Origin: Trissonchulus latispiculum
Taxonomy: Eukaryota > Nematoda > Enoplea > Enoplida > Ironidae
Length of the DNA: 64,000 nt
Reading direction: 5' to 3'
Assembly (NCBI GenBank): GCA_030248195.1
Contig: JASAND010020297.1
Location: 1-64,000, forward strand
Part shown: positions 29,245 through 55,726 of the stretch, in pieces
Position numbering within the stretch: position 1 is the first letter of the stretch
Layout of the letters: the number at the start of each line of letters is the position of its first letter
Program-made: the position numbers and the translations under genes
Notes under the pieces: model-generated
What the model saw: only the letters and a program-made list of their open reading frames with translations
Database searches by the model: none
What the model was told of the DNA's origin: nothing

Positions 29245-31571
29245 TGTCGATGTCACGGTGAAATTTTTCCCCCTAGAAATTTTTCCCCCCGGAAAAATTT
29301 CATTGGTGAAATTTTTCCCCCCGGAAAAATATCACCAGAGAAATATTTCTCCTCGGAAAAATATCACCAGAGAAATTTTTCCGGGGGGAAAGATTTCACC
29401 GATACACTGTAACTGAAATTTTCAAGCAATTATCAACTTTCCAACGTATTTCTTTCCTAGAATATTATCTAATCAATTGAATAGAATCTTAATTTTTGCC
29501 TGGCATATTTTTAATAACATTATCAAATAGGAATGATCTCAGCTCCCAGGAACTAAAGAAACCCCAACATTTAGGATAATATTTGTTTAGCGGGAATTAT
29601 TCCTTTTTTAGATAACTGAAACATAATTTTTTAGTAAAGTCGTTACAGAAATGCTCAATGGGAAAGATTAAATGACTGCACTTGATCATTACTATCCACT
29701 GTGTTAATATGTTTTTGATCGTGTTCCCCTCACATTTAGTTGCGGTTTCAGAATTTCTGGGAAAAGGGATCAAAAACGAAGGAGCAGATAAAATTCCAAA
29801 ATTAATTCTTCTATCCCCAAATTTTCGAATATTTGTGGTTTATTGTTTTAAATTTTTCACTAAATAAGATTTAGTTTAGATTAACCCAATTATTAACCCA
29901 ATTATTAATGTCCAGTAAATTATACTTCATTAAAATTTTTTGTAATAACTTTTCACTAAAGTATTTTTAAATTTCTGATTTAAAATAAAAATTAAATTTA
30001 AATTTGATGTAATAAACTAAATTTCCAGAAATTTTCTGGCTTCGCCTGATTTTTTGCTTAAAATTACTTTTTTGCTTTTTAAAAAAACGTCTGAAAAATG
30101 TGTTTTGGCTAAAAAAATCGCTGTTCTTTGTTAAAAAATGGTAAAAATCGCTTAAAACTCGCTTTCAAAGGTAACCCCCAAGAAAAATCGGTCTCACAAG
30201 GGGTACCCAAATTTGCTTCCACAAGGGTAAGTGAAATTTGACCTCCAGTTCAGGTATGGAACACAGGGTAAGCTGGAGTTAAGATTAATCCCCTTAGCTC
30301 GTCTAACTAAATTTAAGCTTGTGTTCCCACCTTATCTTTTATGAAAAGGTCCAAACTCGTTCAACAACAGCTTAGCCTTTTTTCGAAAGTCTTGTTTTTG
30401 ATGTGGAGCAAGCAGAGCGAGTCGATATACCATCATCAGTGGAGAAACGGAGAAATTCCCAATTTCTCGTCGGTCTGATTCTAGTGATGTTTACACTGAC
30501 CTATTTAGTTTCAGTTTCAGTTTCAGCAACTGAAACTGAAACATGTACAAGCTAAGTTTCAGTTTCAGCTGCTGAAACAACACTACTGATTCTCACTGGA
30601 GGAGGAGGCAATTAACAATTACATACAAAAACACAAAAAATCATTTCGAGACTTCCTACATCAGAGCTTAGAAAATGTTTAGAAGTACAGCTTTTGCTGA
30701 TTATGCTCACTAGTTCTGTGTTTGTAAGATCTCTGTTGATTTAATCACTTAAAATTGGGTTGCTTAATGAAATTTAATTTAGTTTATTACATCAAATTTA
30801 AATTTAATTTTTATTTTAAATCAGAAATTTAAAAATACTTTAGTGAAAAGTTATTACAAAAAATTTTAATGAAGTATAATTTACTGGACATTAATAATTG
30901 GGTTAATAATTGGGTTAATCTAAACTAAATCTTATTTAGTGAAAAATTTAAAACAATAAACCACAAATATTCGAAAATTTGGGGATAGAAGAATTAATTT
31001 TGGAATTTTTTCTGCTCCTTCGTTTTTGATCCCTTTTCCCAGAAATTCTGAAACCGCAACTAAATGTGAGGGGAACACGATCAAAAACATATTAACACAG
31101 TGGATAGTAACAAGAGTATAGTAATGATCAAGTGCAGTCATTTAATCTTTCCCATTGAGCATTTCTGTAACGACTTTACTAAAAAATTATGTTTCAGTTT
31201 TCTAAAAAAGGAATAATTCCCGCTAAACAAATATTATCCTAAATGTTGGGGTTTCTTTAGTTCCTGAAAGCTGAGATCATTCCTTATTTGATAATTTTAT
31301 TAAAAATATGCCAGGCAAAAATTAAGATTCTATTCAATTGATTAGATAATATTCTAGGAAAGAAATACGTTGGAAAGTTGATATAATTGCTTGAAAATTT
31401 CAATTACAGTGTATCGGTGAAATCTTTCCCCCCGGAAAAATTTCTCTGGTGATATTTTTCCGGGGGGAAATATTTCTCCGGTGATATTTTTCCGGGGGGA
31501 AAAATTTCACCGGTGAAATTTTTCCGGGGGGAAAAATTTCTAGGGGGAAAAATTTCACCGTGACATCGACA
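29245..31571. mobile_element. 2.3-kb foldback element with roughly 0.78-kb arms
   Basis: The left arm (29245 to about 30024) and right arm (about 30778 to 31571) are near-complete reverse complements. They start TGTCGATGTCACGGTGAAAT. The outer parts carry short internal palindromes of GAAATTTTTCCCCCCGG type, and the arms differ by small indels. A second palindrome of GTTTCAGTTTCAG units lies in the loop (about 30507-30580). No transposase is seen and no target duplication was identified. Matching open frames in both arms are mirror artefacts. Confidence 0.8.
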
Positions 31572-33860
31572 TAAAGAAGAATGTAACAAACCAATTGAGC
31601 AAGAGGGGACAGAGCTCAGAGTTAGTTTAATAAACTTTAGAGTGGAATTAAAAAAACCGAAACAAAAAGTAATACGATTAATAAAATTAAGAAGAACCAT
31701 GTTGGCCCCCTTTGGTTATAATAAAACCAGGGGAGTCAATACTAGCCCTATGCTGAGCATAGGCTGATTTCTTGCTAAGCGAAGAGTCTGCAACGTTAAA
31801 CATGACCAAATTCCGTGGAAATACATAGTTCTGTCTCCAGGCAGAAGAAAAACAAGTTTCGCAAAGCGAAACATTTTAAATCTTAACTGGGCGGGATTGA
31901 AAATGACCAAAACAAATTTAGTGGGGTGGCCATGTTTAATACATTAAATAACTATTGGGATTCACAGCCCAGGGAACAAATACTCGAATCCGTATCATCT
32001 ACTCCGATTTGCTTACTGGAATAGGATTTTGTACGAATTAATTGCAATTTGAAACTTCTGCAGAAATGCAGCTTCTTTCTGGATGAATACATCTATTATG
32101 CTCCATGTTTCGTCTAAATACAATAAACTGCCATGTCAGTGTATGTATAAAGGATCTCACTTTTGTTGCTAAATCGCATTTCAGAAATGTAGGTGTATTT
32201 AACGGTGGCGGTGTATTCACGGTACCATACTAATTACAGGACCGCGCGCTACGTGCGTCTACTAGCAAAAATTTGTTGTGTAAAACAAAAACTTTGTCAA
32301 AAAGACTTCTTCAATGAAAAAAACAATCAGTTAAAACAATTATATCAAGTGTACCAAAGTAATCAATTAAAGCATTATCAGCTAGCTCTACCTGGCCTTT
32401 TCAGTACAGGTAATGATACATAATTAGATACACCAGGTGGCGGTTCGTAGGGGAAGTTAACTCCACCTTTCGCCTGCAAACTTGCACCTAAACAATAGAG
32501 ATGTGTATAAAATATTCCCATAAAAAGTTCTAGCAAAAATATGATCATATCATCATATCAAATTCAACAAATTCAAAAAGATGGAATAATTGCTTACGTT
32601 TGTTCCACATCACAGGGTCGATCAAAAAATAGAAATGCTTGCCAGCACTATTATAAATTGATCTGCAAACTTTATAGCCAGCAGGGACTAGAAGACCACA
32701 TTTTCCAGTTATGTAAATATATATACGTATAGAAATCTGAATTAGTTTTGGCAGTTTTAATGGTTACCCATATTTAAATTACTCATTAACGAAATAACAG
32801 ACAATAGTCAGCACGCATACAAGCTATAAAGAAGAAATTAATACAAGCCAAAATGCTGGAATCGGTCAAAAATATTGACAGTTAAAACGTAAGGTAAATA
32901 GGTATTAGTATTATTATCAGTGAGTGCTGTTATTAAACAAAATCAATACAATTGCAATGATAAAAGTTCTATGAAATTGCTTATATCTAAATTTATGATT
33001 ATGTTATAACTATCAAACAAAAGTCTTCCTACAATTTAGCGTAGTTTCGTCACATATACATATACACCGCCAAGTTTAGTCAAAACATTTGAGCGAGCGA
33101 ACATTCACATTTCGCTCACGTTAGCCAGCACTGAAATAATTTGAAACTATGTGGGAAAACGTTTAAAATTGAGCATTAGTGGCTAAAAATTTATTGTTGG
33201 ATGGATGTTTTGAGTGAATGTTTACGGTTGAGCTGTTTTGCAAAATAAACTGGAGCTGAAATGTAGCAATGTTCCGCTGTGATTTAAACCGAAATTGTTT
33301 TGTAAGCTTTTCCGTTTACGATTATTAAAAAATGTAAAACAGAGAAGCTGCAGAACTGCTGACGTTTCAGTTGAATACCATTTATATTAAAGTTGGCTTA
33401 CTCTGTGCAGCATATATGTTGCCTCTTCAGTGCAGTTTCCACGATGAATCTCCTCCTAAAGACCATTCCTCCTAACCATTAGTCAGTGTGCAATCAGCAT
33501 CGCAAGTGTTGCAATGTAGGACGGATGGGAGCACGTGCTGACTGTTGTAACACTGGTCAATACGTAACGTAGGAATGCGAAGAAAACTATTGAGCTATCT
33601 ATACGTTTTGTGCTGGTGTTATAAAAATCAACTTAAATCAACTTTCAGTATCCTAACTAAACTATCCTATCCTATGCAAATAATCAGTGCACAAACAAAT
33701 AATCAGTGCACATAAAATGAGGTAAAGACTATTGTAAACAAAAAAATTTTTTCATCTATTAAGAATGTTTTTAACCTAAAGTTTTAATGATCTAGCGCAC
33801 GGACCTTCCTCTCCGCCGCATAAAAAATAAAGATCACCTGATCTTTCCATGAAAACAAGA
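31572..33860. other. Intergenic, no gene recognised
   Basis: AT-rich sequence with short open frames on both strands and no motif I can identify. Confidence 0.4.
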
Positions 33861-33868
33861 AAAATACG

Positions 33869-34222
<354 letters not shown>

Positions 34223-34607
34223 GATATATAGCTACCAAAATTAAAGCACATACATATATAGGGGGAAATAAAGGGAAAGGGTTACATAACTATTCGAATC
34301 AAGGTTTACAGGCGAATCATATAGTAAAGTAGATATATGGCAAAAATAACTGTACATGGCATAGGTAAAGCCCAAAAATTATGTCTTAAACAATGGCAAA
34401 AACGTAAGGCATAGTACCGGCAAAAATTTAAGGCAAAAATTATTAGAAATTAACAAAAACAAACAAACAAGCAATTATGCATATAATGAGCAAACAAAAT
34501 TAAAGTATATATCGTCCTTAATTTATAGCGTCGTTGTTCTTGTTGTAGAATTTGGTTAAATTTAGACTGATAATCTTCTGGTTTCACCGTAGGATGAGTT
34601 CAAACCC
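34223..34607. other. Intergenic, no gene recognised
   Basis: AT-rich spacer with several near-copies of a GGCAAAAAT motif between 34338 and 34440. Confidence 0.4.
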
Positions 34608-34615
34608 GTATGAAC

Positions 34616-36085
34616 TAGGGATGGGCAGCGGTGCGGTTTTACCGCGGTTACCGCGGCGGTAACCGCAGACCTGCGGTATGCGGTAAGGAAGCAAAAACCG
34701 CGCGGTTATTGCGGTTACAGCCGATTCTGATAACCGCGAGAAAACCGCTCTTTTTATCAGGTTTTTCGCTTGAAAATCGCAAATTTACCTTATTTTCTAC
34801 ACGATTTTCTCAACAATGCAAACGTAGCCGAAATATTTTATATTTGTCCGGAATTTTTCAAAATTCTGGCAACTCTTGCTGCTTTGCTACTGTGGCAGAC
34901 TTGATATGCATACACTCGCAATTATAACATTGTTAGCGATGAGCCGTTGAGTCTAACACAGTCTTTGCAGTCACTAACCCAGCCACAGGATTTTAATTTT
35001 ACTATTTCATTTACTATTTTGATATTGTGCCCTGTCGGAAATTGTTAGTTGTAAAATGATTAAACTAATCAAACTTTTGTAATTTATTTAGTTTAAATTT
35101 TAAATCCAAAAGAAATTTTGAAAACTTGTCCGACTGAGTTCTATGCACCGTATGATGCTAAGGAGTGGCCCATGGGCGTTTTTCAGGAATAGCCATTTTA
35201 GGATTTCTGGAAATCTAAAAAAGCGCCCACCCGAAAAAACGCCCATGGGCGATGTTTTGAAAATCCGCTCATAATTGCTGTATTTTTAATTTTCGATAAA
35301 TTTGGTAAGTTTTTGCGGAACAAGCTGCCTGGCAAATGTCAGCTTCCCCCGCGGGTCTATCCAAATAGCATAACCATCGCTTGTAGAGCTTTGAAATAGC
35401 TTAACCAGTCGCTACTTTCTTCACAAACTTGGGGTTTTAATGCCCATGATCGCGAGCACTAAAAAATCCAAAAAAGCGCCCGCCCCCCCGAAAAAACGCC
35501 CATGGGAGTTTCATTGGTTGGGTCACTCTTTAACATAATACGGTAGTTCACCGGTCAAGTAAGGCATTCTGTAAAAGCCTTCATAAATTATATCGCAGTT
35601 TGATTCTTAAAAAACAGATCAGTGAATCTCTAAGAATGATTTCTCCGGAACCAGAATTTGCCACATGCGCAGACAGAAAACATTAAAGAGTGATTATGAC
35701 GGATTTTTGCTTCTAGTTCAGCAAGAAATAAACCCCTCTTAAATTGCAACCAAAATTTCTGATAATTTCCCAGCTATGAAATTTTGTTCCGTTCCATTAG
35801 GAAATAAAATAAAACTGCGAGCGAGAAATAGCAAAACGGTGATCCAACGACATGAAAACTACTGCAGCCGCTGATATGTTTTTATTTTAAAAGCAGTAAA
35901 CTGAAGAAATGTGGAAGATACAAGTTTTTAGGACGAATTAATTACTTTGCCTGCGGTAACCGCGTTTTGATTTAACCGCGGTTACCGCCAAAAATAAGCG
36001 GTAAAAACCGCGGTTATCCGCGCGGTAACCGCACCAAAAAAGCGCTGTATGCGGTAACGAATATTTGCTACCGCGCCCATTCCTA
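34616..36085. mobile_element. hAT-family non-autonomous element, 1.47 kb
   Basis: An exact 8-bp duplication GTATGAAC flanks it (34608-34615 and 36086-36093). The ends are inverted, TAGGGATGGGCAGCGGT and ACCGCGCCCATTCCTA. Subterminal ACCGCGGTTACCGC-type repeats occur at both ends. The interior has two direct copies of an AAAAAACGCCCATGGG block (about 35235 and 35495). No transposase frame is visible. Confidence 0.88.
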
Positions 36086-36093
36086 GTATGAAC

Positions 36094-37485
36094 TCCATTT
36101 CAAGATCGGAGCTGTATCTGCAGAAGACTTCGAATTTAGAATTATTGTTGTTATATCCGTTGTTGTATTCGATTAAGCACACATACATTTATAATATATT
36201 GGCTATACAGAGCCGACAGCGCAATCAAAAGACAGAAAACAAAAAGAAGATCTATAAGCGAAAGTTAGAAAAGAAGAGCTCTAGAAAGAGGAAATCTTTG
36301 AGAAGATAAAGAGAAAATAGAATAAATTGTCATTTTATACAGATTTACTAGTAATTCACTCAGAATAGACTAAGAAAATTCACTACAGAACCACAGAACT
36401 TCTATATATAAGACCGTTAAAGCTCCGAGCTGCGCTGATTAATAGATGATTAACATAAGACACAACAACATACAAGAAAACATATTTACACGATCAATGG
36501 CACTAGCTGAAAACAAAAATTAACTGATGTAGGTAACCGTAACGATTAAACAACCCTATGTAAACAACCATAACAATAAGTAAACAACATAAGTAACAAG
36601 AAAAACAAAATAAGAACGCTTTAGGGGCTTTAGAATATTGCTTTTTTGGATTTTCTGAATATGCATAACGAACTTCAAACACAACATTAACCACTAACTA
36701 TCAATCAACAATCAATACTGTACACGTTTATATGATTACGACAAAATACTAACAAAACAACTATACAGACTATATAATACTGACTAATTAACTACCATAC
36801 AAAATTACTACCGATTAATGTGATCACAAAAACAAATACTAATACTGCGTATATCAGTTCCGCTTAAGTTTCCGTAGTTTTACGCCCGTTAGGTCCTTCT
36901 CATTTAAAGTATCGTCAAAAAGTCCAAATTAAGTCTATCGTGTATACTATTATATCGTCATGAGGCTTTCAAAATCGTTAGTTACTACAGTTTGCCTCAA
37001 AAAAAGTCACGTGATTCTTTCGTCGCTAAATCCTTGAACAAATCCGTCAATAAGCTAACTATTAATCCATTTTAACTCCATTTTGCAAACTTGAGCGTCA
37101 CTTTTTTTGGCGATATTCCGGATATTTTCAGCAATATTCCGCGCACGCTACTGGTTAAATGCTTCTTAGAAAAATGCCAAAATTAGTATGTGAATTTGAG
37201 TTGGATGAGTCACGGTTTCCACTAGAAAGCGAGCCAAAAAGTCCGCACTCAGCAAAACCAATGTCCCTGTTGCGTAGATTGTCAAAAAAGACAACTCACC
37301 AACGTAGGTGGGAATGTTATAACCGACAAAAAATGGAAAAAGAAAACAAAGCATTAACTGACTAAACCAAAGATGGAATAAGCCTTCTGTGCATACTCAG
37401 CTCGAGAGGGTTTACGTTTTACACTTCTATCCGGAAAAGGTAATTCGTCAGTAGGTTTAGCAAAAGGTGGAACTGAAGTTTTCGG
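36094..37485. other. Intergenic, no gene recognised
   Basis: AT-rich. The 3' LTR of element B would be expected around here, but I found no match to 57537-57855. Short frames at 37159-37365 (+) and its antisense show no motif. Confidence 0.4.
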
Positions 37486-37880
37486 TCATGGTGGAAGTTG
37501 ACAATAATTTTCAAGTTGAGGATACGAAACATTTGAAACAGCATCCTCTGGCAAATTGATCACTCGCTTAATGTGAGGATTTTGACTCGTACGAACTGGC
37601 GGTGGCTCCAAGGTTGCACGAACTTGCTTTGGTTCAAGCGGTTCATTCAAAAGAGTATGTCGACCATGTGGGGCCGGTTCAAGTGGCATCAAAGCCGAAA
37701 AAAGATTTTCTGCTCGTTACGTTTTCGTTTACTAAGAGTAGTTGGACGCAAAAGCAAAGCCGCTGGGAAATACACATATGTTTTGGCAAAAGATGTCGCT
37801 CATTTAGAGGATCAAAAGACAATGCAGGTATGCCGTAATGGGTCCGTCAGGTTAAACTCGCCCTGATGTGTAGGCTCAGT
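37486..37880 (-). pseudogene. Element B exonuclease gene, distal 3' end
   Basis: Minus-strand frames here show Pro-rich coding style (PLEPAPHGRHTLLNEPLEP, RATLEPPP). They resemble the last residues of the locus A C-terminal domain (HFDPATPHRATARLPLER). I read this as the end of the same gene, separated from the rest by the inverted-repeat insertion. The similarity is short, so the call is tentative. Confidence 0.35.
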
Positions 37881-37883
37881 CAT

Positions 37884-39845
37884 GACTAACAAAATTTAGT
37901 CACCAAATTTTATTTTAAATTTTATTAGTCCGGAAATTTTGCGACGGGAATTTTGTGACAAAAATTTTTTAGTCACAAAATTTACGCACTAACAATTTTA
38001 TTAGTCCGGGAATTTTGTGACTAAAAACTTTTAGTCACAAAATATCCGCACTAACAATTTTATTACTCCGGAAATTTTGTGACTAAAAAATTTTAGTCAC
38101 AAAATATCCGGGCAAATTTTTTGTTTAGTGGAACAGTCCGGCCTAAAATACAACTAGACCGGACAACGTGGTCAGAACAACAGTCAGGACAGCAATAGTC
38201 CGGGGATAATAGTCCGAGAACAATAGTGCGGACAATAGCCCGGACAACAATAAGCCGGACAACAAGATTCTCGGCAAAACTGCCAGAAGTCGCTTGTAGA
38301 CCGGAGAAACCCGAATTTGGTCAAATGATTTTTCTACAACTTTGGTAGATACAAACGCTAGGACTTTGTATTGTACTGCACTATAGCAGAAGGCTATGCA
38401 AACTTGAGAATTGTTTTTGGCATTCGTAGAATAGAGAAGCATCATGGAAAACTGAACATTTTTGTTTTTTCAAACAGCCAGCATCACCAACCGCTGTGCA
38501 TGTATGGTCACAAGGGATTGGGTAGAAGCTGATATCAATGGACTGGACACGCCGTGTATATGCAATCGATTTTTAGAAACATCTATCTCGACTATTAAAG
38601 CAGTGGATGAATGTGAACTGGAATTGAACAGAGATTTGCAGTGTATTGTAGGAAGTTCCCATGATTAAAGCGGCAAATTATGGATGCATGAATAAAATTA
38701 CTACGTAGTCCTAACGTTCTGTCAACAAGACAGTGCTTGCTTTACAACTATCCTACCAGCACCTACTGAACGAAAGACACACGGAAGTCTATGATAGTTT
38801 TGACCATACAATTGAACATGTACGAAACTCATCGGCTTAAACATCTATTCCTGCAATGTTTGAGCGATTAGCTTCGGGACACGAGTTTGGGGTTAAAAAC
38901 TATCAAAGACATCAAAATATTTTCATTAGGTCAATTCTGCAGTCACGATCAAGAAAACTGGCATTTTAGAACAACAGTCAACAACAATCAACAACGATCA
39001 AAACAACAAAAGTTCTTTGAATTTCATTTCCCGACTTCGCTTTTGATTTTGATGAGCCTTGGGCGATGAGCTTTTGATGAGCCAGTCAGTCCGTAGGTGA
39101 TGAGGGAGCCAGCAGGGTAAAATCCAGCAATAACCCTCTGAGAAAGTCTGGATCTGTAACAAAATGGTTAATTAAAAAAGGTACACAAAATACAAAACAT
39201 TGAAAATGCAAGATTTACGTAGATCCGGTTGAGCAACAAAAGTCATAATTTGGGGGAGGGTTGAAAAAAGGGCTGGGGGGCTACCCCCGCCAACCCCCCA
39301 ACCCCCCCCCCCCCTTACACCTATGATCTGCCAGGCGCCCCCCGACTGCCTATATCCTCAATACCTCCAAAACTGCTCCCAAATTAAGCCCGCATCTAGC
39401 TAATGTATTTAGCACTAGTATTCCGCACGACTGCCCAAAATTAGTCCGGCCTAGTACGGACGTCATTGAGGGTTACATTGGAAAATTTCTTTGTCCGGAC
39501 TAAATTTATGCCTGGCTGTTTATGATGACTAATTTTGTCTGGGTAAGTCAGAGCAGGCTAGACTATATCCCGGAAAGTAGCACTGTCCGGCATTTACCGG
39601 ACAACAATTTTGATAGTCCGGGATTTTGTGACAAACCAAAAATTAGTCACAACATTTTGCCTGACTAATAATTTTGTTCTTGTGACTAAAAAAATTAATC
39701 ACAAAATTTCTGGACTAATAATTTTATTAGCCCGGGGATTTTGTGACTAAAAACATTAGTCACAAAATTCCCGGACTAATAATTTTATTAGTCCGGGAAT
39801 TTTGTGACTAAAAAAATTAGTCACAAAAATACCGGCCTAACAAAC
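37884..39845. mobile_element. Inverted-repeat element with palindromic terminal units
   Basis: Both ends contain several copies of a roughly 60-bp palindromic unit built from ATTTTGTGACTAAAA...TTAGTCACAAAAT and GGACTAATAATTTTATTAGTCC. They are at 37887-38112 and 39598-39838. Short GTCCGGACAACAATAG-like repeats lie inside. The middle (38300-39350) has only short frames; a Cys-containing frame at 38462-38668 is unassigned. It lies inside the element B exonuclease gene, whose homology to locus A stops at its borders. Exact ends and target duplication were not resolved. Confidence 0.6.
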
Positions 39846-41110
39846 TTTACACTTTATGCACTGATTTGCGGCCTCAGCATTATCAAAGAGAAAATGTTCG
39901 TCCAAAAAAAGAAAACCGCCTGCAATAGTATGCATAAATGTAGCTTGTAGCATACATGAATATATGGATATCGATAAAAAGCTTTCATATAGAGATGTTC
40001 AGGATTTAAACCTTCAACACCTGGCGGGTTTGCAGATGGATAGCCGGTCAATCGGCCTTTTTCGGTAAAAAGTGAATACGTATCACGAATTGCACGCCAA
40101 GATGCTATCAAGTTGTTATTAATTCGAGCCAAACACTAAATTTGAGCGCGAAAACATTTCAGCAACAAGTGAGGCCAATTTCTGATATCAGGAAAAATTT
40201 TAGGATACAAATTGGTCAAGGCCTCATTAGGGCTAGGTCTTACTCCAATAAGCGCAAGTTCCTTGTGAGAGTTTCCAAAATTATCACGCATAGCTGGCAA
40301 TCTCAAAGAGATCGAACTGCGTTGAGCGCGTTTTCCATTCGCATCCTTGTAAAAAGTAACATTAGGAGTGATAGTACATTTAGGCCAATTTGGAGTTTAA
40401 ATCTCAGTTCAAATCTCCCGCTTGAAGAGTTCCAATAAATTTGATGGCAAATCAATAGCTGTAACACAATGTTCTCGAAAGCAAAGGCTAAATCTATTAC
40501 GAAAAGCTTCTAACCAAGGATGGATAAATGTCGGACGGGCATCACACGATGGTGGCAATGCTGCTGCACGAATGACTCTATTTAATCAATAAACAACTAC
40601 TGGAGAAGTAGCGTTTCGTCTAAGATCCGCAGCAATCCTTCAAGGAATGTTATCGTAAACGTCAAACGGCGCATAGATCGGAGATCCAATTTTAAGTGAA
40701 ACACCAGGATCCATGTAGAAACGAATTGCCTTACAAATAACTAAAGTTTCACGGAAACTAAATGTTGAAAGCTTTTCATCCAGCCAATCTAAATAGACAT
40801 CCTTGCTTAACGATGCTGGAACTTCCATTTGTTGATCCTCTGTTGTAACAGTCGTCGTCGAAGCCACTCCTCTTAGCCTGGAATAGTCTTAGTCCTTCCG
40901 ACTCATTATCTAGGAATTCAAACTCCTTCGCAGGTTGAACTGGTGCGGGATTGTAGGTGGCTTAGGGTTCAAAACCTCTGGCTGAAAATCCTTGACTGCC
41001 TTAGTCTCCACAGGTGTTAAGTCTTCATTACGGATTTCTGGCAAGGTTGGTAAAGCTGGTGGAGGAGGGACTGGATCAACCCGTTCAGCATAGACTGCCA
41101 TTTGCAATGG
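39846..41110 (-). pseudogene. Element B exonuclease gene, C-terminal region
   Basis: Minus-strand frames 41107-40910, 40867-40640 and 40132-39854 read Pro-rich (VDPVPPPPALPTLPEI), then TLVICKAIRFYMDPG, then WRAIRDTYSLF. These align in order with the linker and C-terminal domain of locus A (TVAAFRRAAMTWFTP, HRLQAIRKAYWYW). The frames shift repeatedly. The insertion at 37884-39845 cuts the domain short. Confidence 0.5.
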
Positions 41111-41196
41111 TTCTGGTATAACGTTAGGATTTCTGCTTGATGAGGTTTGAAAACAGAATTTAGAATAGCGTCCATAAGAGTTCCTTTGGCGAGCCG

Positions 41197-41768
41197 CTAC
41201 TCAGATAAGACAACTGCGTAATGATAAACAGCCAAAGAGTCCTCGGGACCTAAAGAATACAAAACTCGATATGCCAAATTACTTTGTTCGGCCAAAACTG
41301 AGGTAATTTCTATCCGATTGAGAGACAGATTCGGCGGCTTCGTTCTGGATGTATCGACAAAGATAGCTATGTTCAAAACCTCTAGGTTCACATTTCATAG
41401 GTGGTCGAACAAGATAAGCATAGAATTTGCCTTCGGAGAGAACCTTATCTTTCAAGTAGATGGAAACTGGCTGTTCATTTTCAAACTTCTCGTGGGAAGA
41501 TCGCTATATGATCGGTTGTTGATTCAACTTGTTTCAAAAGACGAACGGTATGCATTTGTCCTTCAGCAGTTCGAATGATCACTTCCAAATTTGATGTTGT
41601 CTTCGAGAAAGTCGAAATAGATTCCGCGTCTGGCACAGATGACTTAATAGTTCCTAAACTCTCCTTAAACTTCCAATCTTTCGCAATTCCTGACGATGTT
41701 GATGGTTCAACAGAAACAGATGGTTCTCCTGAAGAAGTTTTACAGATTTTTAAAGGTGGAATGACCAC
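41197..41768 (-). pseudogene. Element B exonuclease gene, middle region
   Basis: Minus frames 41768-41481 (Ser/Thr-rich, then RTAEGQMHTVRLLKQV), an unlisted frame to about 41295, and 41391-41197 (LSLNRIEITSVLAEQ). They match locus A 3920-4330 in order. Shared blocks include V-x-P-M...F...S-x-YL...IQ and a following LSLNRIEI / VSPLHLVA strand. No interruption like 3218-3915 of locus A is evident in this copy. Confidence 0.5.
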
Positions 41769-43351
41769 TGTGGTTGGGCCGCAGTCGCATGGCTTACAGT
41801 CGATCCAGAAAGATCGCTCGCAGACATGACAACCGGGCCTACCTGTGATGGTTGTTGGATTAGATTGTCCCTAAAAGCTACCTTCCAATCCTTCAAGGTG
41901 AGCTGATCGTTTGGCGGCAAATCGGCCATAGCTGGTGCCGCCGGTAAAGGATCACCTTCCTCTGGCTCCTCATAGGACTGATCCAGGCCATCATCCCAGT
42001 CCTGCTTTGCCGGAACACTTCCAAGTGCTGGCCATTGGAATCTTGGGAAATAGGATGTGTTCCATTCAGATCGAAGATCGTGCTGTGATTCGATAGGCTG
42101 ATGCTGTCTAGGCACAAAAATAGCACAAACATATTTCCACATTAACTTAAAGATTTCAGGTGCCTCTTTTATAATAGGCTTAGTACTGCGCAAATACTGT
42201 CCCCAGATATTAGTGAGATCATCTGACAATTCGATGTACGGAACCGGTTTTGAAGGATCGTGATCCTGTTTCAAACGAAACTTACGTTCACGTTCCATTT
42301 TCTCACGGTTCACTCTGCTAGTATCATGATTGTAAAACAAAAATTCATGCATGTCCGCAAAGGGACTAAAACGACGAATACTCTCTTTCTGAATAGTGCG
42401 TACGGTGTTCGAATCGCTCGTGAAAGAGAAAAGTACAGTGGCTGAATAAATCAGCTGTTCCCAAATATGTGGTTCAGTACAAAAAGTTACTAGCGTTTGC
42501 GCTACAGATACTAGGCACAACAGATCAGCACACGAATATCTCACATGCCAGAGCCATGGCACTAAGGTGGTTCCCCACATAGAGGGAGCATCCTGTTCCT
42601 GTACAACCTCCTTTGGATTTGGAATGTCTCAGAAAACAGCAGTGACTTTATTACTGAGATTCGAATTGATATGGCCAGGAGTTGCCTGGTTAGATATGGA
42701 GTCCAATCATCACTACCTGGCAAACACCTTTATCAATCAGCGTTCCTAGACTGCGCCAGAGTTCAGTAATTTCCACTAAGGAACTTTCTAGGCTAGATAG
42801 ATCAAAGAAACGACCTAGGCGCAAAGCGTCCGAATTTGCACCAATCGACAGAAAATATGCACCATTCTTCGGATCGAAAAATTTCCTGAGTAAATGCAAA
42901 GCAATCTGATAGTCCAAATGTGTAGCCATAAGAGCTCCTAACCAGATAACGATTTTATGTTTTCGCTCTGTTTGCTCGGGACCAATCGGTCCTGCCAATT
43001 GAATAGCGCCCATAGTAGCTGCTGGATATAACCGAAATCTGGGAACCCTAGACCTTCCAAATCCAAAAGAATGTACCCGCTATTCAAAAGATCTGTTAAA
43101 GTATGAATTTCATTGATTAGCTGCTCAACAGTCGAAATGGATCGAATCCCTTGCTCAGTACAATAGGCAGCGTTTTCTTTCAACCTACACTCCATGGCAT
43201 AGGGAATCGCAGTGGGTTTTATCCCTGACACTTTACCGATATCGTACGAAAGTGTGGGATCCGGTTTAGGATCCTTTTCTGAATAAATTTTCCACATGGT
43301 TTTCATGTGGTCTAAAGTACGTTCACGTTCTTGAGTACGTTCTTGAGTCGA
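41750..43351 (-). pseudogene. Element B DEDDy exonuclease-like gene directly after integrase
   Basis: The frame starting before the ATG at 43306 is open across the last codons of the integrase, in a different frame. It encodes LLDLEGLGFPD (motif I, D/E near 43063-43055). Motif II SIGANSDALRL follows in an overlapping frame (D near 42830-42828), and motif III YSCAD in the 42580-41750 frame (Y/D near 42538-42524). Distances between motifs (233 and 304 bases) nearly equal those of locus A (237 and 309). The Asp/Glu/Tyr residues are all kept although two frame changes intervene. A charged region and Pro/acidic linker follow. This is a diverged relative of locus A in the position of a third retroelement gene. 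Confidence 0.65.
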
Positions 43352-44640
43352 TTCATGTGTATTGGTTTACTAAGTTTCCCTGTTTGTAAACACCTTAACC
43401 TAACATTTTGTTCCGGAATCCTTTCTACAATACGAAATGGTCCGTCATACTTGGGAGCTAGTTTTGCCATATGTCCTTGTGGTACAGGTACTTGTGAAAC
43501 TGTCCCACCGCTTTATACGTACTTTCTAATCGTACCTTTGCTTAACTAACTCGCTCTTATCCTTAATGATCCTAGCCGTTAATTCCCAATTTTCCGCTAA
43601 TTGACGCATCGCTGACGTTTTGTACGCGTTTAAAGAAGTCACCGGTTTCTCGAGTTTATCAAAAAGTAGATCCTCATGAACGCTACAATCGCGACCAAAA
43701 AGTAGGAAATACGGAATGTCCTGAATAGTCGAATGAAAACACGTTCGGTAAGCGTGCATAGCAAAAGCAAGTTTCATGTCCCAATCCCGTTGCGGCGTAT
43801 CTATGTACTTCTTTATAATCTCCCGTATAGCACCATTAACCCTTTCTACGAGTCCATTGGATTGGGGTGATATGCCGTCGTACGTAACTTAGTTGTTCCT
43901 AGCAACTTAAAAAATGTATTAGTTACTTCCGATTGAAAATTAGCTCCTTGATCTGTTACAACTTCCTTAGGTACACCATATCGCAAAACAAATTCATACA
44001 ACAGCGTACGTATTAGTGTTTCTGACTTTTCGTTCCTTAAAGGCCAAGCTTCGGCCCAACGCGTCAATTCATCTATCAAAACGAGAACACAAACCTTTCG
44101 ATTCTTACTCGTAGGAAAGTGACAAACATCTAGGTAAATCCGTTCAAAAGGTTTTGTTACAGGTGGATAGGGCTTCAACGGAGCCTGTGGACTTCTTGGA
44201 CCAATCGAAAATTTATTGCATACTATACAATTACGTACGTATCTAGTCACGTCTGCTGATAAAGTCGGCCAGTAATATTTCGTAGCTATCTTATAAATAG
44301 TCTGAGGTACGCCTAAGTGTCCTCCCGTGTCTGGTGCACTATGATGCTGATACAGCATGTAATTTCTATATTTCTGAGGTACATAGATAGTTCTAGGTAA
44401 CGCGTATCGCCTACGTCCGTGAGCATCTATATGATGCTTGTACAAAATCCCGTTTTCAAGCACGAAATCATCCTCGAGACGAATTAAACGCCAAACCTTT
44501 CCATCGGTTGTTAAACGTCCCGTTTCCATGTAGTCTTTTAAAGGACCAAATTCAGGCTCTTCATTCAAAGATTGAATCCAACTTTCATCAGAAAATTTCT
44601 CAATAAAAAATACAGGGGGATACATGTCTTCAGTTACGTC
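43310..44640 (-). pseudogene. Element B Ty3/gypsy integrase
   Basis: The frame 44625-43846 contains the HHCC zinc region (HHSAPDTGGHLG, NCIVCNK), then the catalytic Asp motifs YLDVCHF and VTDQGANF. A frameshift near 43860 precedes the Glu motif (NGLVERVNGA). The frame 43777-43526 continues the core. A GPY/F-like C-terminal block (KLAPKYDGPFRIVERI, about 43480-43430) ends in HMNRLK and a stop near 43310. The domain order is complete, with frameshifts as the visible damage. Confidence 0.85.
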
Positions 44641-44889
44641 AAATTAGCTTCATCATTATCAGTTTGCGTACGTACTTGCTGAAATCGTGAACCCTCCGTC
44701 GCAATGTCAGCCAAAAAGTTGTCCTTGGACTTTGGATTACGCGAAAGAGCACCTGCTACTGGATTGTCAACACTTAGCTGATAACGCTGTAAATTTGTAC
44801 TCTTGCAGTGCTATATGCCACTTAGCTAATCTGCTGTTACCTTGCCTTTTTGGACAGGTAAAAATATACTTGAGTGCCTCATTATCAGT

Positions 44890-45184
44890 ATAAAGAGTGA
44901 ATTGTTGGTGTCTTAGGTAGTTTATGTTACTGTTTACACGCCCATACTACGGCTAGTCCTTCTAGTTCGTAAATTTCGTATTTGCTTTCAGCACCCACTA
45001 AAGATCTACTGGCGTAAGCTATTGGTTTAGGTCTAGATTCACTCTTCTGAGCTTGCTCTAGTACCGCACCGAGACCTTGAATACTTGCATCAGTTGTTAA
45101 CAAGAATGGATTATCCCAACTTGGATATGCCAAAACAGGTGCATTTGTTAATGACGTTTCTAAGTTTTCAATCAAAGTTGGCAA
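44890..45184 (-). pseudogene. Element B RNase H domain
   Basis: The minus frame 45184-44927 reads LENLETSLTNAPVLAYPSWDNPFLLTTDASIQGLGAVLEQ and YASRSLVGAESKYEIYELE in succession. That is the start of a Ty3/gypsy RNase H with the DAS catalytic motif intact. A TLRQH-like continuation in another frame runs to about 44700. Confidence 0.8.
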
Positions 45185-45900
45185 TCATCTGTCCAGTGAA
45201 AACTCTTGTTTCTTCAATAAATTTTTCAAAGGTCCAGCGATAGTACTAAAGTTGCTAATAAATCGTCTATAGTATGCAGCCATACCTAAAAATCCACGTA
45301 GCTGCTTAATTGTTCTAGATACGAGAAAATTTTGAACTGCTGTGACTTTACGGGAATCAGTTTCAATACCTTTATCAGATATGAAATGCCCAAGATATTC
45401 TACCCTCGTACTGAAAAACACACTTTTTCATCTTCAAACGAAGTCCATGATCGCTAAGCTTTTGAAAAACAATTTTAAAGTGATGTTCTTCGTCATTTTA
45501 AGGTATTAGCAAATCATCGATATAAACTGGCAGTTCCGTAAGTAACGTTCCGTAACGGCAGTTCAGTTCCTCTGGTGTTAAAGTTTCTTCTTGTTTAGAT
45601 GGTGCCTTTTCTTCTTCCAATATTGTATCTTTCAGATTGGAATTGTGAATTGCTGAATGTGCTTGTAGCTTTTCTCCCGAAACAAGGTCTGGTTCACATA
45701 CGTACTCTTGCTCGAACCAATTATCTCCCCAATGTATAAAAGCTTCCTTGCCTTTCTGAACTGCAACGAGGTCATCAGCGCAAGCGAGACGCATACCTGG
45801 TCTTAAATCCAATGGCTCTGGGGCCAAATTCCACATTCGAACGTATTGCGTTTGATTTTCGCCTGAAATGATGCCAGGGACCACGTAGCAGTTATACTTT
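45185..45900 (-). pseudogene. Element B reverse transcriptase with internal deletion
   Basis: The frame 45884-45498 passes from the pre-RT linker (LTPEELNCRYGTLLTELP) straight into YIDDLLIP. The fingers and the palm motifs before the active site are missing. The part after YIDD is normal (HFISDKGIETDSRK, QLRGFLGMAAYYRRFI in 45421-45185). The copy therefore cannot encode a working RT. The joint lies near 45530. Confidence 0.75.
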
Positions 45901-46025
45901 TCCAGTATTTTAGTGGAATTTAGAACATTTTAAGTGACTCTGCAAAACGTGAAGACCAAGGAGCCGTCTCTGGTTTTACTTGGGATGCATAGTACCCATG
46001 ACAGCAAGTACCTCATCCTCTTCTT

Positions 46026-46800
46026 TCACATCAGAATTGTTTGATCCACTTCACAAGCTATTGGTACCCACGGTTCTGAATTAGATGGTATGCACACTCC
46101 TACTCGAAGAAAAATATTTGACACTTTTGGGGCTTCTTTTCCCACAATTTGCAAAATACTATCTAATTGAGGTGCGCCTAGAAGGGGTACTTCTTTAAAA
46201 AGAGGATGGTAGATTGAATGTCTGCCCAGTGACATAGAACAATTATAGGTGGAAAGAAAATCGGAACCCAGTAAAACATCATATGGGCAATGTTTACTAA
46301 TCAAAAATTCATGAGGCCAAATATACCCTTAAAAAGACAATTTTAGTTTGACTAAACCAGAAAAAATCAATAGGAGTACCATTTGCTGCAGTAGCTGAAG
46401 CATACGTCGTTCACCTGGAGTGAGTGCCTCTGCTGCCTTCTTTTGCAAATGTTCTATAATACTCTTCGGGGTGACGGAGATATTTGCTCCAGTATCGATT
46501 AACGCTAATGTATTTAAGCCAGAGACAGACACTACAACCACAGGTGAATGAATAGGTGGAATTTTTGCTTGAGCTCCTACAAAATACTTATCACCCTGAG
46601 CAAAAGCCATTAAATAATTTCGATTGTTGAAAATCGGTTCAGACTTTGGTGCCTTTTGTGGCTGTTGGCTACATATCGTTGGCGATTTATCCGCAAATTC
46701 AGACTCAGAATCGGAGCTTTCTTCAGTTTTTGAAGCATCCGAATAAGAAAGCAAGACATCTTCAAAAAGGAATTTATCAGGAAAATCTGGGTCCAAGACC
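46026..46800 (-). pseudogene. Element B aspartic protease region
   Basis: The frame 46796-46329 contains LALIDTGANISVTP, a retropepsin active-site motif. The frame 46304-46026 continues with YDVLLGSDFLSTYNC, the typical LLG(S/N)DFL block. A frameshift separates them. Confidence 0.8.
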
Positions 46801-46897
46801 TTATGCTTTATCTTCCGTTTACTTTGTTGTAACTTCTTAAGTACCCGTTTTATTTTGAAGTTCCTACTCCCTGTTCTTTACTGAGTTCTTCCTCAGT

Positions 46898-48410
46898 TTA
46901 TTGTCCTTTTCCTTGTAAATCTGCCTCTTGAACTTGGGTGGATGCCTCATCTAGAGTTGTAAGCATTCTTAACCTGTAGCCAAAGCCCATTGATGACTTG
47001 CTAGTGTTAGTGCTTGAAGTAGGCGCATGACTTTTTATTTGATGGAGAGAGGCATCCGTCTTTTCCTGTTGACCAGAATCACCGTTATGCTTGGTAACCT
47101 TGGAGTGGCGAGCCAAAAAGTTCGCTCCTGAAGGCACCCCTTGATCTAGTGATCTGGGTGTGCTCGTCCCTAAATTTGGCAGGTGGGCATTTGCAGATGG
47201 GAAAGTCACGCGAGGTCCTAAGGAAAACGCTTGATTTTCGCAGCTGCGCCCATTCGTAGCAATCGGTCGAGGAGCAAATCCAAAATTATTCCTAGCAGAA
47301 AAACTGTAGACGCATTCGAAAATCTAGGCTGTTGCCTCTGAAAAGGGAAATTATACCGAAAATTTGCTAGTAAAAACCTAGGTTGCTGGGAATTCATTGG
47401 CCTAAAGCCAGCGTTCTGATTTTGGAAACGTGAATTCCGAAAAGTAGACCAGAAAAGGAGTTTGCCTGATTGAAATTGGCTTGATTTGATACCTTGGATT
47501 TTTTTGGATTGGTCGAAGAAAATCTGCATTTCGCTTGTCGTCCTGGCTACCGTCAATAGACTCCAATTTTACCCATCGTTGTTCATCTGGTATAAAAAGA
47601 ACACGCTCCTCCATTTCAGATTGAAAGTGCTTTAAATTTCCAGAAAACCCGTTAGGCGTGAAAGAAACATTAGAAGGAGGGCTTGTACGTACGTACGTAT
47701 TAGAATTTGACGTCGAAAAACCATTAAGATTCGGCTGAATAGAGCATGCCATGTTCGTACGTACATACGTATTTGCAGAATTTGGAAATTTTTCTAAGTT
47801 TGTTCGTCCGAATTGATGGTTAGGTGGTAAATTAGACTTTACTACCCGCATAAGAAGAGAAGACAGAACAAATTTGATCCGATGAAATAGTCTTCTGGTT
47901 GGGGTATGTCTTCACTAAACTTACCACCACGTTCTCAGATGAAGAAAAAAACCGAACAAACATTAGGGCTAGAATTTGAAACCGTAGTAGAACTAGGGTT
48001 AAAAGTTTCCCCAGGAGGGAACGAAGTTACTGCGGGTTGGGGGCCTGGAGTTTACGCCTCCCGCAATCTGAAAATTCTGCCCGCTAGAATTTAAGGGGAC
48101 TATATAAGAAACATTCGGTTGCGCCTGCTGATATTGCTCATAGGACATATTTGAAATGGCTGACCGTTAGCATCCATTAAAACGTCTGGACGAGAACCGC
48201 GCCTTAGGAGTTTCCAGGATTACCCCTGGAACCACGAGAATTATTTCGAGACCAATTGTTGTTACTACTGTTGTTATTGTTCCAGTTTGAGCGCGAATTT
48301 TGATTCCAATTTTGGTTTTGGTAGTTGCCGCGGTTATTGCCACGGAAATTACCACGTCCACGGCCGCGCCTAAAGTTTGAATTGCCTAGCTTATAGGAGG
48401 GCACAATTTC
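46898..48410 (-). pseudogene. Element B gag C-terminal region, Arg/Gly/Asn-rich
   Basis: The minus frame 48404-48204 is a dense Arg/Gly/Asn tract (RGRGRGNFRGNNRG). Frames 47851-47402 and 47556-47218 continue with Asn/Ser/Pro-rich sequence. I see no CCHC zinc knuckle, so the RG-rich tract may be the nucleic-acid-binding part. TACG repeats occur at 47688-47700 and 47756-47770. Confidence 0.6.
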
Positions 48411-48484
48411 AAGCTATATGTCTAAGATTTCATTCATAGCAAGTCACGTTACTGAAATAACGCGGAGACTGAGCAGATCGCTGG

Positions 48485-49528
48485 TTAGAATTTTGCTGCT
48501 GAGCAGGCGTAGAGCGTAGATGGCGTAGCTTGAGCTGCAGCGACTGTAGGAGATTCAGTAGAAATAGGAGCCTTCGCACTACAAAGTTGCGCTTCCGTTT
48601 TTCCTGCTTTGACGGTTTCCAAATCAATTTCCAATTGCACAGTTTTGAGCTTCATATCAAAAAGTTGGGACTGCAGTTTAGATAATTTTTCATCCTGTTC
48701 CGAGTTTTTGGTGGTAGAAACACTACGGACCTTCGCTTTCGTCTTTGATTCCTTTTTGGAAGTGGAAGGGGAGGTCGACGAATATAGAGTTTGTTCCTCC
48801 TCCAACCGCGAAAGCTGAATCACAATTTTGCGCAATTTTTCCATGTTCTGTCCCCAACATTCCAAATCAGCTAGGAGGGAGACACCCAAGGTTTTCAAAT
48901 CAGAGCGAAGACCTTTACGGAGCTGTTCAAAAATGTTCACTGCCCTTCCGTTTTCATTCTCATTTCGAAAAAATTTCGGGCTAGAATTTCCAAGTCAGCG
49001 GCAAAATCTTGTACCTTTTCGTCCTCCTTTTGAATACGTACGTAGAAATTTCGCGAATGCTCAGCCGTTGTCCTTGTCACAGGTTCGTACAAAACTTCAG
49101 AAGTTTGACTAATTCCTCATACGAATCTGGAAGTCCAAAAGAAGAAAGTCGATGAAGGACAGTTTTCCCAATTTTGGCTAGCAATAGGGAGCGTTTCTTT
49201 TCCTCAGGGATTTCGTGAGCACGGATAATTGCCTCAAAACTTGTGACCCATTCCTCTGGGGTCAACGTAGTTTCTCTACCGTTATAGGGACTTAAGCTCT
49301 TAAAAAGCGCAATATAGGTTTTATATCCGCCATATTTTGCAAATGCTGACGATGCTGAGCTCTAGTTACCACAGGAATGATGTGAACGCGTAAATCAGCA
49401 AATTGATCAAAAAGATTATCCCAATTCTCTCTATGCCTTTGCAAACGCTCCTGCGCAGAATCATCGAATCTCGAAATTTTTCTCAAAACTGGGAAAAAAT
49501 CGTCCAAACACAAGGAAAATATTCGCAA
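48485..49528 (-). pseudogene. Element B gag, capsid-like region
   Basis: Frames 49528-49292, 49265-49077 and 48940-48485 join in order. They include LTPEEWVTSFEAIIRAH and KKRSLLLAKIGKTVLHRLSS, typical of the Ty3/gypsy retrotransposon gag domain. VRIQKEDEKVQDFAADLEIL then continues between frames, followed by a coiled-coil-like segment. Frameshifts break it into pieces. Confidence 0.7.
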
Positions 49529-49797
49529 AATGTCAGAAAGAACTCATACAATTTATCTACGCCTTTAGTTGAGGTCGTAGATGGTATTCCACAACAAAAA
49601 CTTCAAAAATCTGCTCAGAAAATGAAATGATCAAAAGTCAAATATTGGGTCACAACAAAAAATGTCAAATATAAGAAAAAATAAATGGAAATATGGTGAA
49701 ATTGTAGAAAAAGACACAATAAATTATTCCACGACCTTTGTTTCAGTCGTGCTTGGCAAAAGATTCGAAAATTGGACGTTATCAGATAAAACACACA

Positions 49798-49802
49798 AGG
49801 GG
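49798..49802. repeat. BEL/Pao target-site duplication, left
   Basis: AGGGG directly before the 5' LTR; the same five bases follow the 3' LTR at 55722-55726. Confidence 0.85.
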
Positions 49803-50001
49803 TGTCAAGAATTAACAATGAAGAATTAAATGAAAGAGACTATGAAGATAAAATCCATAACTATAAATGAATATAATGAATCTTATCTTAGAAACTTTAA
49901 CTACAGTTGTTTGATCGCATGTTTCTTTCATTATGATTTTGGCTAGAGATGAGTTCAAACGCGTTGTTCATTTTCCTAAGCCTTAACTAGATGTTACCAC
50001 A
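49803..50001 (+). repeat. BEL/Pao 5' LTR
   Basis: 199 bp, TG...CA ends, matching 55523-55721 apart from GATCGCATG versus GATCATATG. Confidence 0.93.
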
Positions 50002-50004
50002 TTT

Positions 50005-50021
50005 TGGTAGCAGAGTTCTAG
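50005..50021 (+). promoter_or_regulatory. Candidate tRNA primer-binding site of BEL/Pao
   Basis: TGGTAGCAGAGTTCTAG begins three bases after the 5' LTR and starts with the TGG expected from a tRNA CCA end. The primer tRNA was not identified. Confidence 0.5.
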
Positions 50022-50100
50022 TTTTCCAGTTTTTTGCCTACTCCTACTATCAGAACTTATCAACTGTGCAACTCCTATTGCACAATCCACTACTATCAAC

Positions 50101-51620
50101 ATGTCAGATGACACTCCTTGCAAGGAATGTAACACTACAACGAATGAAGATCTACTTTGTGACAAATAGCAGAGCTGGTGGTGTTCCCGATGCGTCAATT
50201 CCAAATTTCCAGATCAGTTACCACCAGCTCTCTTCAGGCACCTGCGGAACAAAGAATTTCCGTGGTTATGCAGCGATTGCTCCGAAATTCCCTTGCCACA
50301 ACAATTACTACAAAACAAAATCATTTCTAAAGAGACACTGCTAAAATTTGGCAGCAATCCGATTGCATTTTCTAAGAATGCAACTCTACGCAGCGGCCAT
50401 CTTCCCCCTGAAGTCGACACCAACCCCCCCCCGTTCCAAATGCTACAGACAACACTACAGCTGCTACAGACTCTGCTAACACCATTACTGCCGTCCTAGA
50501 AATGATGCGACTAATGATGACGCAGATCCAGCAAGATCGGCAGGAACGTCAGCTCGAGCGCCAAGAACGTCAAAGGTGGGAAGAGCAACAACTTCAACTG
50601 ATTCGCCAAGAAAGATATTCAGCCAGAGAGGAATGAGATCGAGAAAGACATGAGAGACGAAAGGAGCTGGAGCTCCTACTAGGAACATTTTCGACATCTA
50701 CCGGTTCTGCGGCTGCTACCCCTAATATCCCTACCCCAACGACTGGAATTCCACCCTCCCCCCGACAAGAAAGCCTAGCTAAACTGCCAAAGATAACCTT
50801 GCCCACCTTTTACGGGAACACTTTGGACTGGCCCAATTATTGGGAATCTTTTGACATCAACGTCAATTCCCGTGGCAACCTTCAGAATAAACAGAAGCTC
50901 GATTATCTTTATCAGACTCTTAAAAGATCCGCCTTGGACAAAATCAAAGGCCTTGGACTAGAAGGTGACAAGTACGAGGAAGCTGTAAGTATCTTGAAAA
51001 ATACCTACGGTGATAAAAATGTAATCTTGTCAAATGACTGGGACTCTAAATGGGACGGGAAATCTAAATGGGCTACAAAGTGTAAGGGATAATTTATCTA
51101 ATTTTGAAAAATTCATTGATGAAGTCCGGGCCTTATCTACTACGCTAGAGCGCTTAGGTGTTGAAGACAGTACTTTAAAGGGATATGTTCCAACACTTAT
51201 TAAGAAGCTTCCAGCACCCGTCTATCAAAAGGTTCACGAATTGGCTGTAATCAAGGATGAAGAGATTTCATCCTGGACTATAGCTAGTCTCGTAGATAAT
51301 CTGACCAAAATCAAGAAGTGTATGCCAAACCCAGAAACTAAAAGAAGAGACAAAATAAAATATGAAACTACAACTGAAGAGGTTTTTGATCCACCAACTA
51401 CGACTGCTGCACTATATCAAACAAGCACGCAAACCAAACCAAAACGAGAATGTGCATTTTGCAAAAGATCTAATCACTTCAGTGATTCATGCAAAACAGT
51501 CACTGATCCACAGGAGCGATTAGAAATTGCAAAACGCAACCGAAACTGTTTAAATGTCGTGCAACAGACCATGTGGCCGGAACCTGCAAGAAAAACAAAA
51601 GTTGCTTCCACTGCGGAAGC
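50101..51620 (+). pseudogene. BEL/Pao gag
   Basis: It starts at the ATG at 50101. The first 65 or so codons hold a PHD-like cysteine pattern (CKEC, LLC, WWCSRC, LCSDC) broken by a TAG at 50167-50169. A Gln/Arg/Glu-rich coiled coil follows (about 50500-50660, with a TGA at 50634-50636). Next is the DUF1759-type block LPKITLPTFYGNTLDWPNYW (50790-50845). After a frameshift near 51060 come three CX2CX4HX4C knuckles: CAFC, CFKC and CFHC (the last two in the frame that becomes the protease). The frame change at about 51548 sits in a TTTAAA run. Confidence 0.8.
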
Positions 51621-53300: not shown

Positions 53301-53389
53301 AGTACCAAGAGGAATGGCGCCAAATCGAAGTCTGCCTGTCAGAGATTTCCAAGATCCGCTTAACTCGCCAAATTCCATAGGATCCAAAC

Positions 53390-53800: not shown

Positions 53801-53949
53801 GGAATCGCTGTGGTGGAATGGTCCTCTATGGTTACGCAGTGCGGTCAGCTTTGAGCAACAGCTACGAATTGGGATGCCAGTACCACAACAGGAAATGAAG
53901 ACAAACCACATGGTGATAGCAGCAGGATGGGATTTGGCGCCAACCAATC

Positions 53950-55721: not shown

Positions 55722-55726
55722 AGGGG

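Follow-up and report, generated by a model that had tools for sequence, protein, structure and literature searches.

A decayed third gene with exonuclease-like and NADAR-family domains in a Ty3/gypsy retroelement of a nematode-like genome

The window analysed here (JASAND010020297.1, positions 1–64,000; C13800:1–64000 in the searched genome of 733.8 Mb and 21,732 contigs) carries, on its minus strand, the integrase block of a Ty3/gypsy long terminal repeat (LTR) retroelement followed by exonuclease-like frames. The question raised by this locus is whether the exonuclease-like gene is part of the element, as a third open reading frame (ORF3), or merely lies next to it. The integrase block and the three exonuclease motifs of the preliminary description (DLEG, ~43063–43052; SDALRL, ~42833–42816; YSCAD, ~42538–42524; all minus strand) were found where it had placed them, the motifs lying in differing frames because this copy is frameshifted. 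Comparison with relatives identifies the segment as a decayed ORF3 that belongs to a Ty3/gypsy LTR retroelement, the genome being nematode-like, and the gene is very probably an ORF3 that combines an exonuclease-like domain with a NADAR domain. It is a real, conserved third gene; each of its two cargoes was already known singly, and their combination is new. The segments of the window copy on which this rests are:

43315–44640, minus: integrase (H2C2, rve and SH3/p58 C-terminal block), from a Pfam search
43326–43340, minus: deletion junction between integrase and ORF3, where relatives are longer by ~0.92–0.96 kb
42377–43219, minus: ORF3 exonuclease-like domain of the DEDDy type, frameshifted, from motifs and translated comparison with relatives
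39999–42376, minus: middle of ORF3, with no known domain, from comparison with relatives and a Pfam search
39840–39998, minus: N-terminal NADAR remnant, from a NADAR profile built in this analysis and tblastn
37841–39834, no strand: ~2 kb of palindrome-rich DNA, replacing ~617 bp of ORF3 including most of NADAR
37357–37840, minus: C-terminal tail of ORF3, from comparison with relatives

The H2C2 zinc domain and rve core of the integrase lie within 43846–44625 (minus), and the SH3/p58 block (43315–43512, minus) gave E-values of 2.1e-6 and 7.2e-6, each slightly short of the Pfam cut-offs. The exonuclease had been described as sitting directly after the integrase, which is true of the window copy and not of the native element, since 0.92–0.96 kb separates the integrase end from the exonuclease frame in the four relatives that match on either side of the join and were measured (C3563, C18422, C2228 and C18538, named by contig). 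The reading of this contact as a natural junction was rejected: a deletion at 43340/43326 produced it and also removed the start of ORF3 (residues 1–104).

A protein search with the exonuclease region of one relative gave at least 140 matches in the genome, five of them at 96–100% identity over all 280 residues and many at 45–64%, so that the finding goes beyond chance. Only part of the search candidates was scored (95 of 6224 for integrase, 138 of 542 for exonuclease and 142 of 640 in the NADAR protein search), so that a missing match is weak evidence and every count a minimum. Integrase is followed by exonuclease on the same strand in 14 contigs, with a gap of 951–1279 bp in 13 and 4380 bp in the other (65 of the 140 exonuclease matches paired against all 96 integrase matches; the remainder compared by eye). 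When the first 40 of the 140 exonuclease matches were paired with 51 hand-picked NADAR matches (of 146) and 14 integrase matches (of 96; those of the 14 contigs just named), 31 had a same-strand NADAR no more than 8 kb downstream, at a gap of 663–3758 bp (2.3–2.9 kb in 24 of the 31), and integrase lay upstream of 11; by eye, the other nine had no NADAR partner among the NADAR matches listed. Thirteen of the 40 share an open frame with NADAR, as judged by equal frame length. In ten of these 13 the shared frame spans 1731–1827 codons, and in the remaining three (1585, 1610 and 1645) it lies at a contig end. The order integrase-exonuclease-NADAR is common to families down to ~50% identity in the exonuclease and NADAR domains.

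In one relative gag, pol and ORF3 are all open. Its 1935-aa pol frame has the Ty3/gypsy order (protease, 519–619; reverse transcriptase, 950–1102; RNase H, 1167–1299; integrase, 1445–1800), and its ORF3 has 1737 codons by genome search, or 1675 counted from the first methionine ahead of a basic stretch, with exonuclease motifs at residues ~190, 264 and 366 and a NADAR E-x6-K pair near 1294. The ORF3 layout in relatives is a basic N-terminus, a DEDDy-like exonuclease domain, a long middle and NADAR, which starts ~2.5 kb beyond the exonuclease. Upstream of the ORF3 ATG an acceptor-like TTTCAG was seen in two of three copies inspected and TTTTAG in the third.

The LTRs of relatives are direct repeats of ~380 bp, running from TGTTGAGAATC to TTTCACA, and form pairs with TG..CA ends. 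Sixteen copies, chosen by the analyst, were fetched: seven carry the exonuclease region, eight lack the exonuclease, and C7307 has only the part of ORF3 beyond the exonuclease domain. Target-site duplications flank two of four aligned LTR pairs (GTCC, ACTG) and are absent from the other two; all four copies lack the exonuclease. Among ORF3-bearing copies, a 5′ LTR is present in the window copy and C2228 and a 3′ LTR in C18538, with partial 3′ LTRs in C3563 and C21483. None of the copies examined was seen to combine the exonuclease with LTRs at both ends, which counts against the explanation favoured below. That ORF3 belongs to the retroelement is supported by a place that recurs in many copies, by LTRs of one family on its flanks and by selection.

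Selection was estimated by the Nei-Gojobori method as the ratio of nonsynonymous to synonymous substitution rates (dN/dS) among open copies. The exonuclease domain gave 0.043–0.118 (six pairs of four copies, one to six nonsynonymous changes per pair) and NADAR 0.025–0.115 (three pairs of three copies, one to four changes per pair), beside 0.098–0.137 for pol (six pairs of four copies). Other parts of ORF3 are looser, at 0.18–0.21 for the N-terminal part (five pairs with changes) and up to 0.21 for the tail. Both the exonuclease and NADAR domains are under purifying selection.

A second, diverged pair of frames near the start of the window provides a second family for comparison:

634–2463, plus: ORF with an exonuclease-like domain (residues ~70–345; 844–1668), by BLASTP 1e-26 and 31% identical to a relative of the first
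4848–7001, plus: NADAR-like ORF downstream of it, by BLASTP 7e-15 to the NADAR region of the first's relative

A Pfam search of 4848–7001 gave no match of its own. The contig starts at window position 1, upstream of this pair. Frames of up to 2515 aa that are 27–33% identical to the first exonuclease recur genome-wide and, from their sequence, may be of the same type as this pair. Between the two families, 31% identical, the DEDDy motifs are kept in order: motif I (D-x-E), motif II (D) and motif III (Y-x3-D).

The part of ORF3 that had been described as an unknown C-terminal domain is NADAR (PF08719); of the rest of that description, the gene's membership of a retroelement lineage is supported by place, LTRs and selection, and its motif set is DEDDy-like. 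In excised regions the Pfam NADAR model scored 35.1 bits, equal to its cut-off of 35.1 (E 2.1e-8), in one copy and 33.5 bits (E 6.1e-8) in another; on a whole long frame it scored 29.9 bits (E 7.9e-7). NCBIfam TIGR02464 matched with E 7.8e-7, yet its 29.5 bits are far below the cut-off of 73.7, and the region also matches phrog_1017 (E 9.3e-7), to which no function has been assigned. NADAR catalytic residues are a Glu/Lys pair, E88/K95 in the E. coli C7 protein (PMC11543638), together with a last-strand Glu, Asp or, in phage, His (PMC11543638, PMC11125620; here as below, known systems are cited from the available parts of the papers). By alignment the E-x6-K pair is invariant in both lineages. 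Two points weigh against a NADAR enzyme: the region has no significant PDB match by sequence, and, in the alignment alone, the last-strand acidic residue is lost in the element's lineage (AKAASGHPFMG, versus FGEASGETFWG in the second lineage, where the Glu is apparently retained). Since this residue is missing, the domain is filed as NADAR-family and not as a proven hydrolase; the nearby His may stand in for the acid, and NADAR activity may differ between the two lineages.

A genome-wide NADAR search gave 2478 first-look candidates, and all 150 that were scored lie above the Pfam cut-off (124–150 bits), mostly in open frames of ~140–300 aa or ~680–730 aa. By profile match, NADAR domains have multiplied greatly in this genome, on ORFs that recur.

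Exonuclease cargo had been thought new to LTR elements, which had to be rejected: DEDDy ORF3s are published for the bdelloid rotifer LTR elements Juno and Vesta, where they were acquired at least twice (Rodriguez et al. 2017, PMC5408684), and a DnaQ-like exonuclease is a well-known accessory domain of LTR elements (PMC6338049). The element described here resembles Juno and Vesta in having gag, pol and a DEDDy ORF3 (RNase D-like in theirs; PMC5408684); compared by description, it differs in its nematode-like host and in its exonuclease-like domain, which has diverged strongly and shares a single long ORF with NADAR. A word search of the available text of PMC5408684 found no mention of NADAR. 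Retroelement-borne NADAR (YbiA-type) is likewise on record, in Pol of an Ectocarpus (brown alga) Gypsy lineage and ORF1 of an oyster Tx1 LINE (PMC12477816); in contrast to these, NADAR here is encoded by a separate ORF3, towards its C-terminal end, and the main text of that paper, in its available part, does not mention 'exonuclease'. ORF3 shares PF08719 by profile and the E-x6-K pair with the hydrolases DarT1-linked NADAR, YbiA and phage gp30.3 (PMC11543638, PMC11125620), and differs from them in the absence of the last-strand acid from the element's lineage, which the second lineage apparently keeps, and in its setting in a large protein. NADARs of nidoviruses and other RNA viruses likewise form part of large proteins, encoded by RNA-based genetic elements of invertebrates, although these proteins are polyproteins with RNA-dependent RNA polymerases (PMC9503650). 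No description of an exonuclease-NADAR fusion in retroelements was found in the open-licence literature searched. A database of 5.8 billion proteins gave no match for the long single-frame query (7883 candidates) or for the exonuclease alignment (5431 candidates), and a search of viral contigs gave no relative. DEDDy or NADAR domains known separately from retroelements of rotifers, brown algae and oysters are here joined in one conserved ORF3 of an animal Ty3/gypsy lineage, and the case illustrates how much of a third ORF's function escapes notice if only one decayed copy is considered.

Taken as a whole, we lean slightly towards the explanation that the conserved ORF3 is a separately made accessory enzyme acting on the element's own nucleic acid. 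ORF3 would be made apart from Gag-Pol, probably from spliced or trans-spliced RNA, as the acceptor-like TTTCAG/TTTTAG upstream of its ATG suggests; the exonuclease-like part would trim or clear 3′ ends of element RNA or complementary DNA (cDNA), and the NADAR part would strip or bind ADP-ribose that host enzymes attach to RNA or DNA, which would let the element intermediate survive host defence or repair. ORF3 would be dispensable in cis, derivatives without it having persisted. The mechanism itself, an accessory enzyme that keeps the ends of element RNA or cDNA clean despite host modification, is put forward tentatively, by analogy and with a chance well short of even. Precedents for its parts exist: 3′-end processing was suggested for the rotifer DEDDy ORF3, its role being left undecided by the authors (PMC5408684), RNA processing for retroelement NADARs (PMC12477816), and removal of host ADP-ribosylation for NADARs of animal RNA viruses (PMC9503650). 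A narrower form is possible and on balance doubtful: that ORF3 is a two-function enzyme, clearing ADP-ribose marks through NADAR and blocked or damaged 3′ ends through the exonuclease from element RNA or cDNA, as the first retroelement-coded counter-defence against nucleic-acid ADP-ribosylation. If true, the two-function ORF3 and the multiplied NADAR ORFs would point to a nematode arms race over this modification; in either case the joining of the two domains, in a host genome where NADAR matches strongly at 150 places or more, offers a testable link between nucleic-acid ADP-ribosylation and retroelement control.

Instead of an enzyme, ORF3 could be an env-like or structural protein (particle or ribonucleoprotein assembly, membrane targeting) in which both folds are catalytically dead binding modules, as in the inactive DEDD proteins Maelstrom and EXD1 (PMC5408684). 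We consider this unlikely. It would account for the position of ORF3, which is the third-gene place of env, for the missing last-strand acid of the element-lineage NADAR and for the long middle in which Pfam recognises no domain. Against it, both families retain all five DEDDy residues and both lineages the NADAR E-x6-K pair, and Pfam, in a search that did not include transmembrane or glycoprotein prediction, found no env domain.

ORF3 could also be a passenger, captured once, carried along by hitch-hiking copies and now being lost, and the copies without it speak for this. Half of the analyst-chosen sample (eight of 16) lacks the exonuclease, although the tail of ORF3 and, at a minimum, the integrase portion of pol remain; in one, flanked by GTCC, the LTRs (379 bp) are 99.7% identical, so that such copies moved recently. 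In three of them pol stands at a synonymous distance (dS) of 0.33–0.40 from that of an ORF3-bearing copy and is constrained, with dN/dS of 0.106–0.123 among themselves. A sister lineage (C14625, C14272, C4515 and others), with integrase 82–87% identical and pol frames of up to 2326 aa, has no exonuclease match among the matches listed. The preliminary description had named full-length relatives with an LTR right after the integrase, and the exonuclease gene only at unrelated loci, as the finding that would refute it. In this strict form it was not seen: exonuclease-less copies do exist, but all eight examined keep a short ORF3 remnant (window ~41940–41776) as well as the tail, and look like deletion derivatives. 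Against a passenger stand the dN/dS of the exonuclease and NADAR domains, within the range of pol or lower, and one-frame ORF3s that persist in families 51–64% identical in these domains, which together require sustained selection on ORF3; we therefore regard mere carriage as quite unlikely. ORF3 is selected where present and, since derivatives without it kept a selected pol, not needed in cis everywhere; its absence in cis may reflect supply in trans or dispensability.

That the exonuclease-like region is an unrelated domain with look-alike motifs, and no DEDD nuclease, is distinctly unlikely too, although much of the profile evidence sits on its side. Profile searches of the translated segments, which the preliminary description had suggested, placed NADAR at the Pfam cut-off and gave no significant exonuclease match in Pfam, NCBIfam, PHROGs or PDB. 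The best PF01612 match (window 844–1668) has E 0.24 and 11.6 bits against a cut-off of 23.6, and the element's own lineage has none in the Pfam search; in NCBIfam, 844–1668 nominally matches best a model for a conjugation ATPase, which is unrelated (E 0.0042; its 15.4 bits fall far short of the cut-off, 325). In a comparison with ten DEDDy domains from bacteria (seven of 30 listed matches plus three of 80 loci; the broken window copy excluded from the element alignment), HHalign gave a probability of only 5.7, its default alignment covered motif III alone, and a relaxed setting brought I and III into line but left motif II shifted by one residue. A hmmsearch with the same ten sequences reached at most 4.7 bits, a narrower RNase D set (16 of 80 loci) gave nothing in profile comparison, and AlphaFold2 models are of low confidence (mean predicted local distance difference test, pLDDT, 33 for a two-row model of the exonuclease region, and 38). 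A true DEDDy relationship is favoured by the bacterial alignment, which pairs motif I with I and III with III at a score of 24.9, higher than the best of 40 shuffled controls (20.2) and than the reversed one (15.9), by the PF01612 match, which falls on motif III in the correct register, and by the five motif residues kept across families: given residue-wise conservation of seven of 14 D, five of 11 E and two of five Y, all five would be kept by chance in ~2% of cases. The label 'DEDDy-like' was chosen because the motif set is complete and the profile evidence weak; the exonuclease assignment, resting on both, is not firmly shown.

In the same genome a PF01612 search gave 34 matches among 36 candidates, many in frames of 712–753 aa (for example in C8966, C9383, C13216, C6810 and C10389). 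These resemble a further family of repeated exonuclease ORFs, with profile scores above the Pfam cut-off.

A host exonuclease gene lying by chance beside a dead retroelement, for which only the decay and frameshifts of the window copy speak, is ruled out for practical purposes by the order and similar spacing kept in many contigs, by an open frame of ~5 kb without introns, and by flanking LTRs that, across the copies, occur on both sides and belong to a single family.

When the 16 copies are mapped onto the window, the damage to its Ty3/gypsy copy is explained by several deletions and by the insertion of a BEL/Pao-like element within it. The remaining segments are:

57537–57916, minus: 5′ LTR of the Ty3/gypsy element, ~380 bp, beginning TGTTGAGAATC, aligned with paired LTRs of relatives
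55718–57536, minus: 5′ leader, 78–85% identical to relatives
49803–55721, plus: nested BEL/Pao-like element inside the 5′ leader, foreign to the Ty3/gypsy element, with 199-bp terminal direct repeats 99% identical
43315–49802, minus: gag-pol with many frameshifts, domain order taken from the relative's open pol
33640–37356, minus: 3′ untranslated region, interrupted by an insertion at 34617–36085

The stretch just after the 5′ LTR is presumably a primer-binding-site-like sequence. Relative to other copies, the reverse transcriptase region lacks ~595 bp at 45541/45566. The nested element has DUF1759, protease and H2C2 integrase matches by family search and is missing from relatives; BEL/Pao is our reading of these domain matches. 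No 3′ LTR of the Ty3/gypsy element was found within the window, and an Rfam scan of the window gave no matches.

Palindromic AT-rich repeats resembling miniature inverted-repeat elements occur at 37945–38130, 39671–39847 and 31419–31540. An open frame at 59676–60041 (minus) resembles, by eye, the GIY-YIG endonuclease of a Penelope-like element, and a collagen frame (PF01391) at 18825–19448 (plus) resembles what we take to be nematode cuticle collagen.

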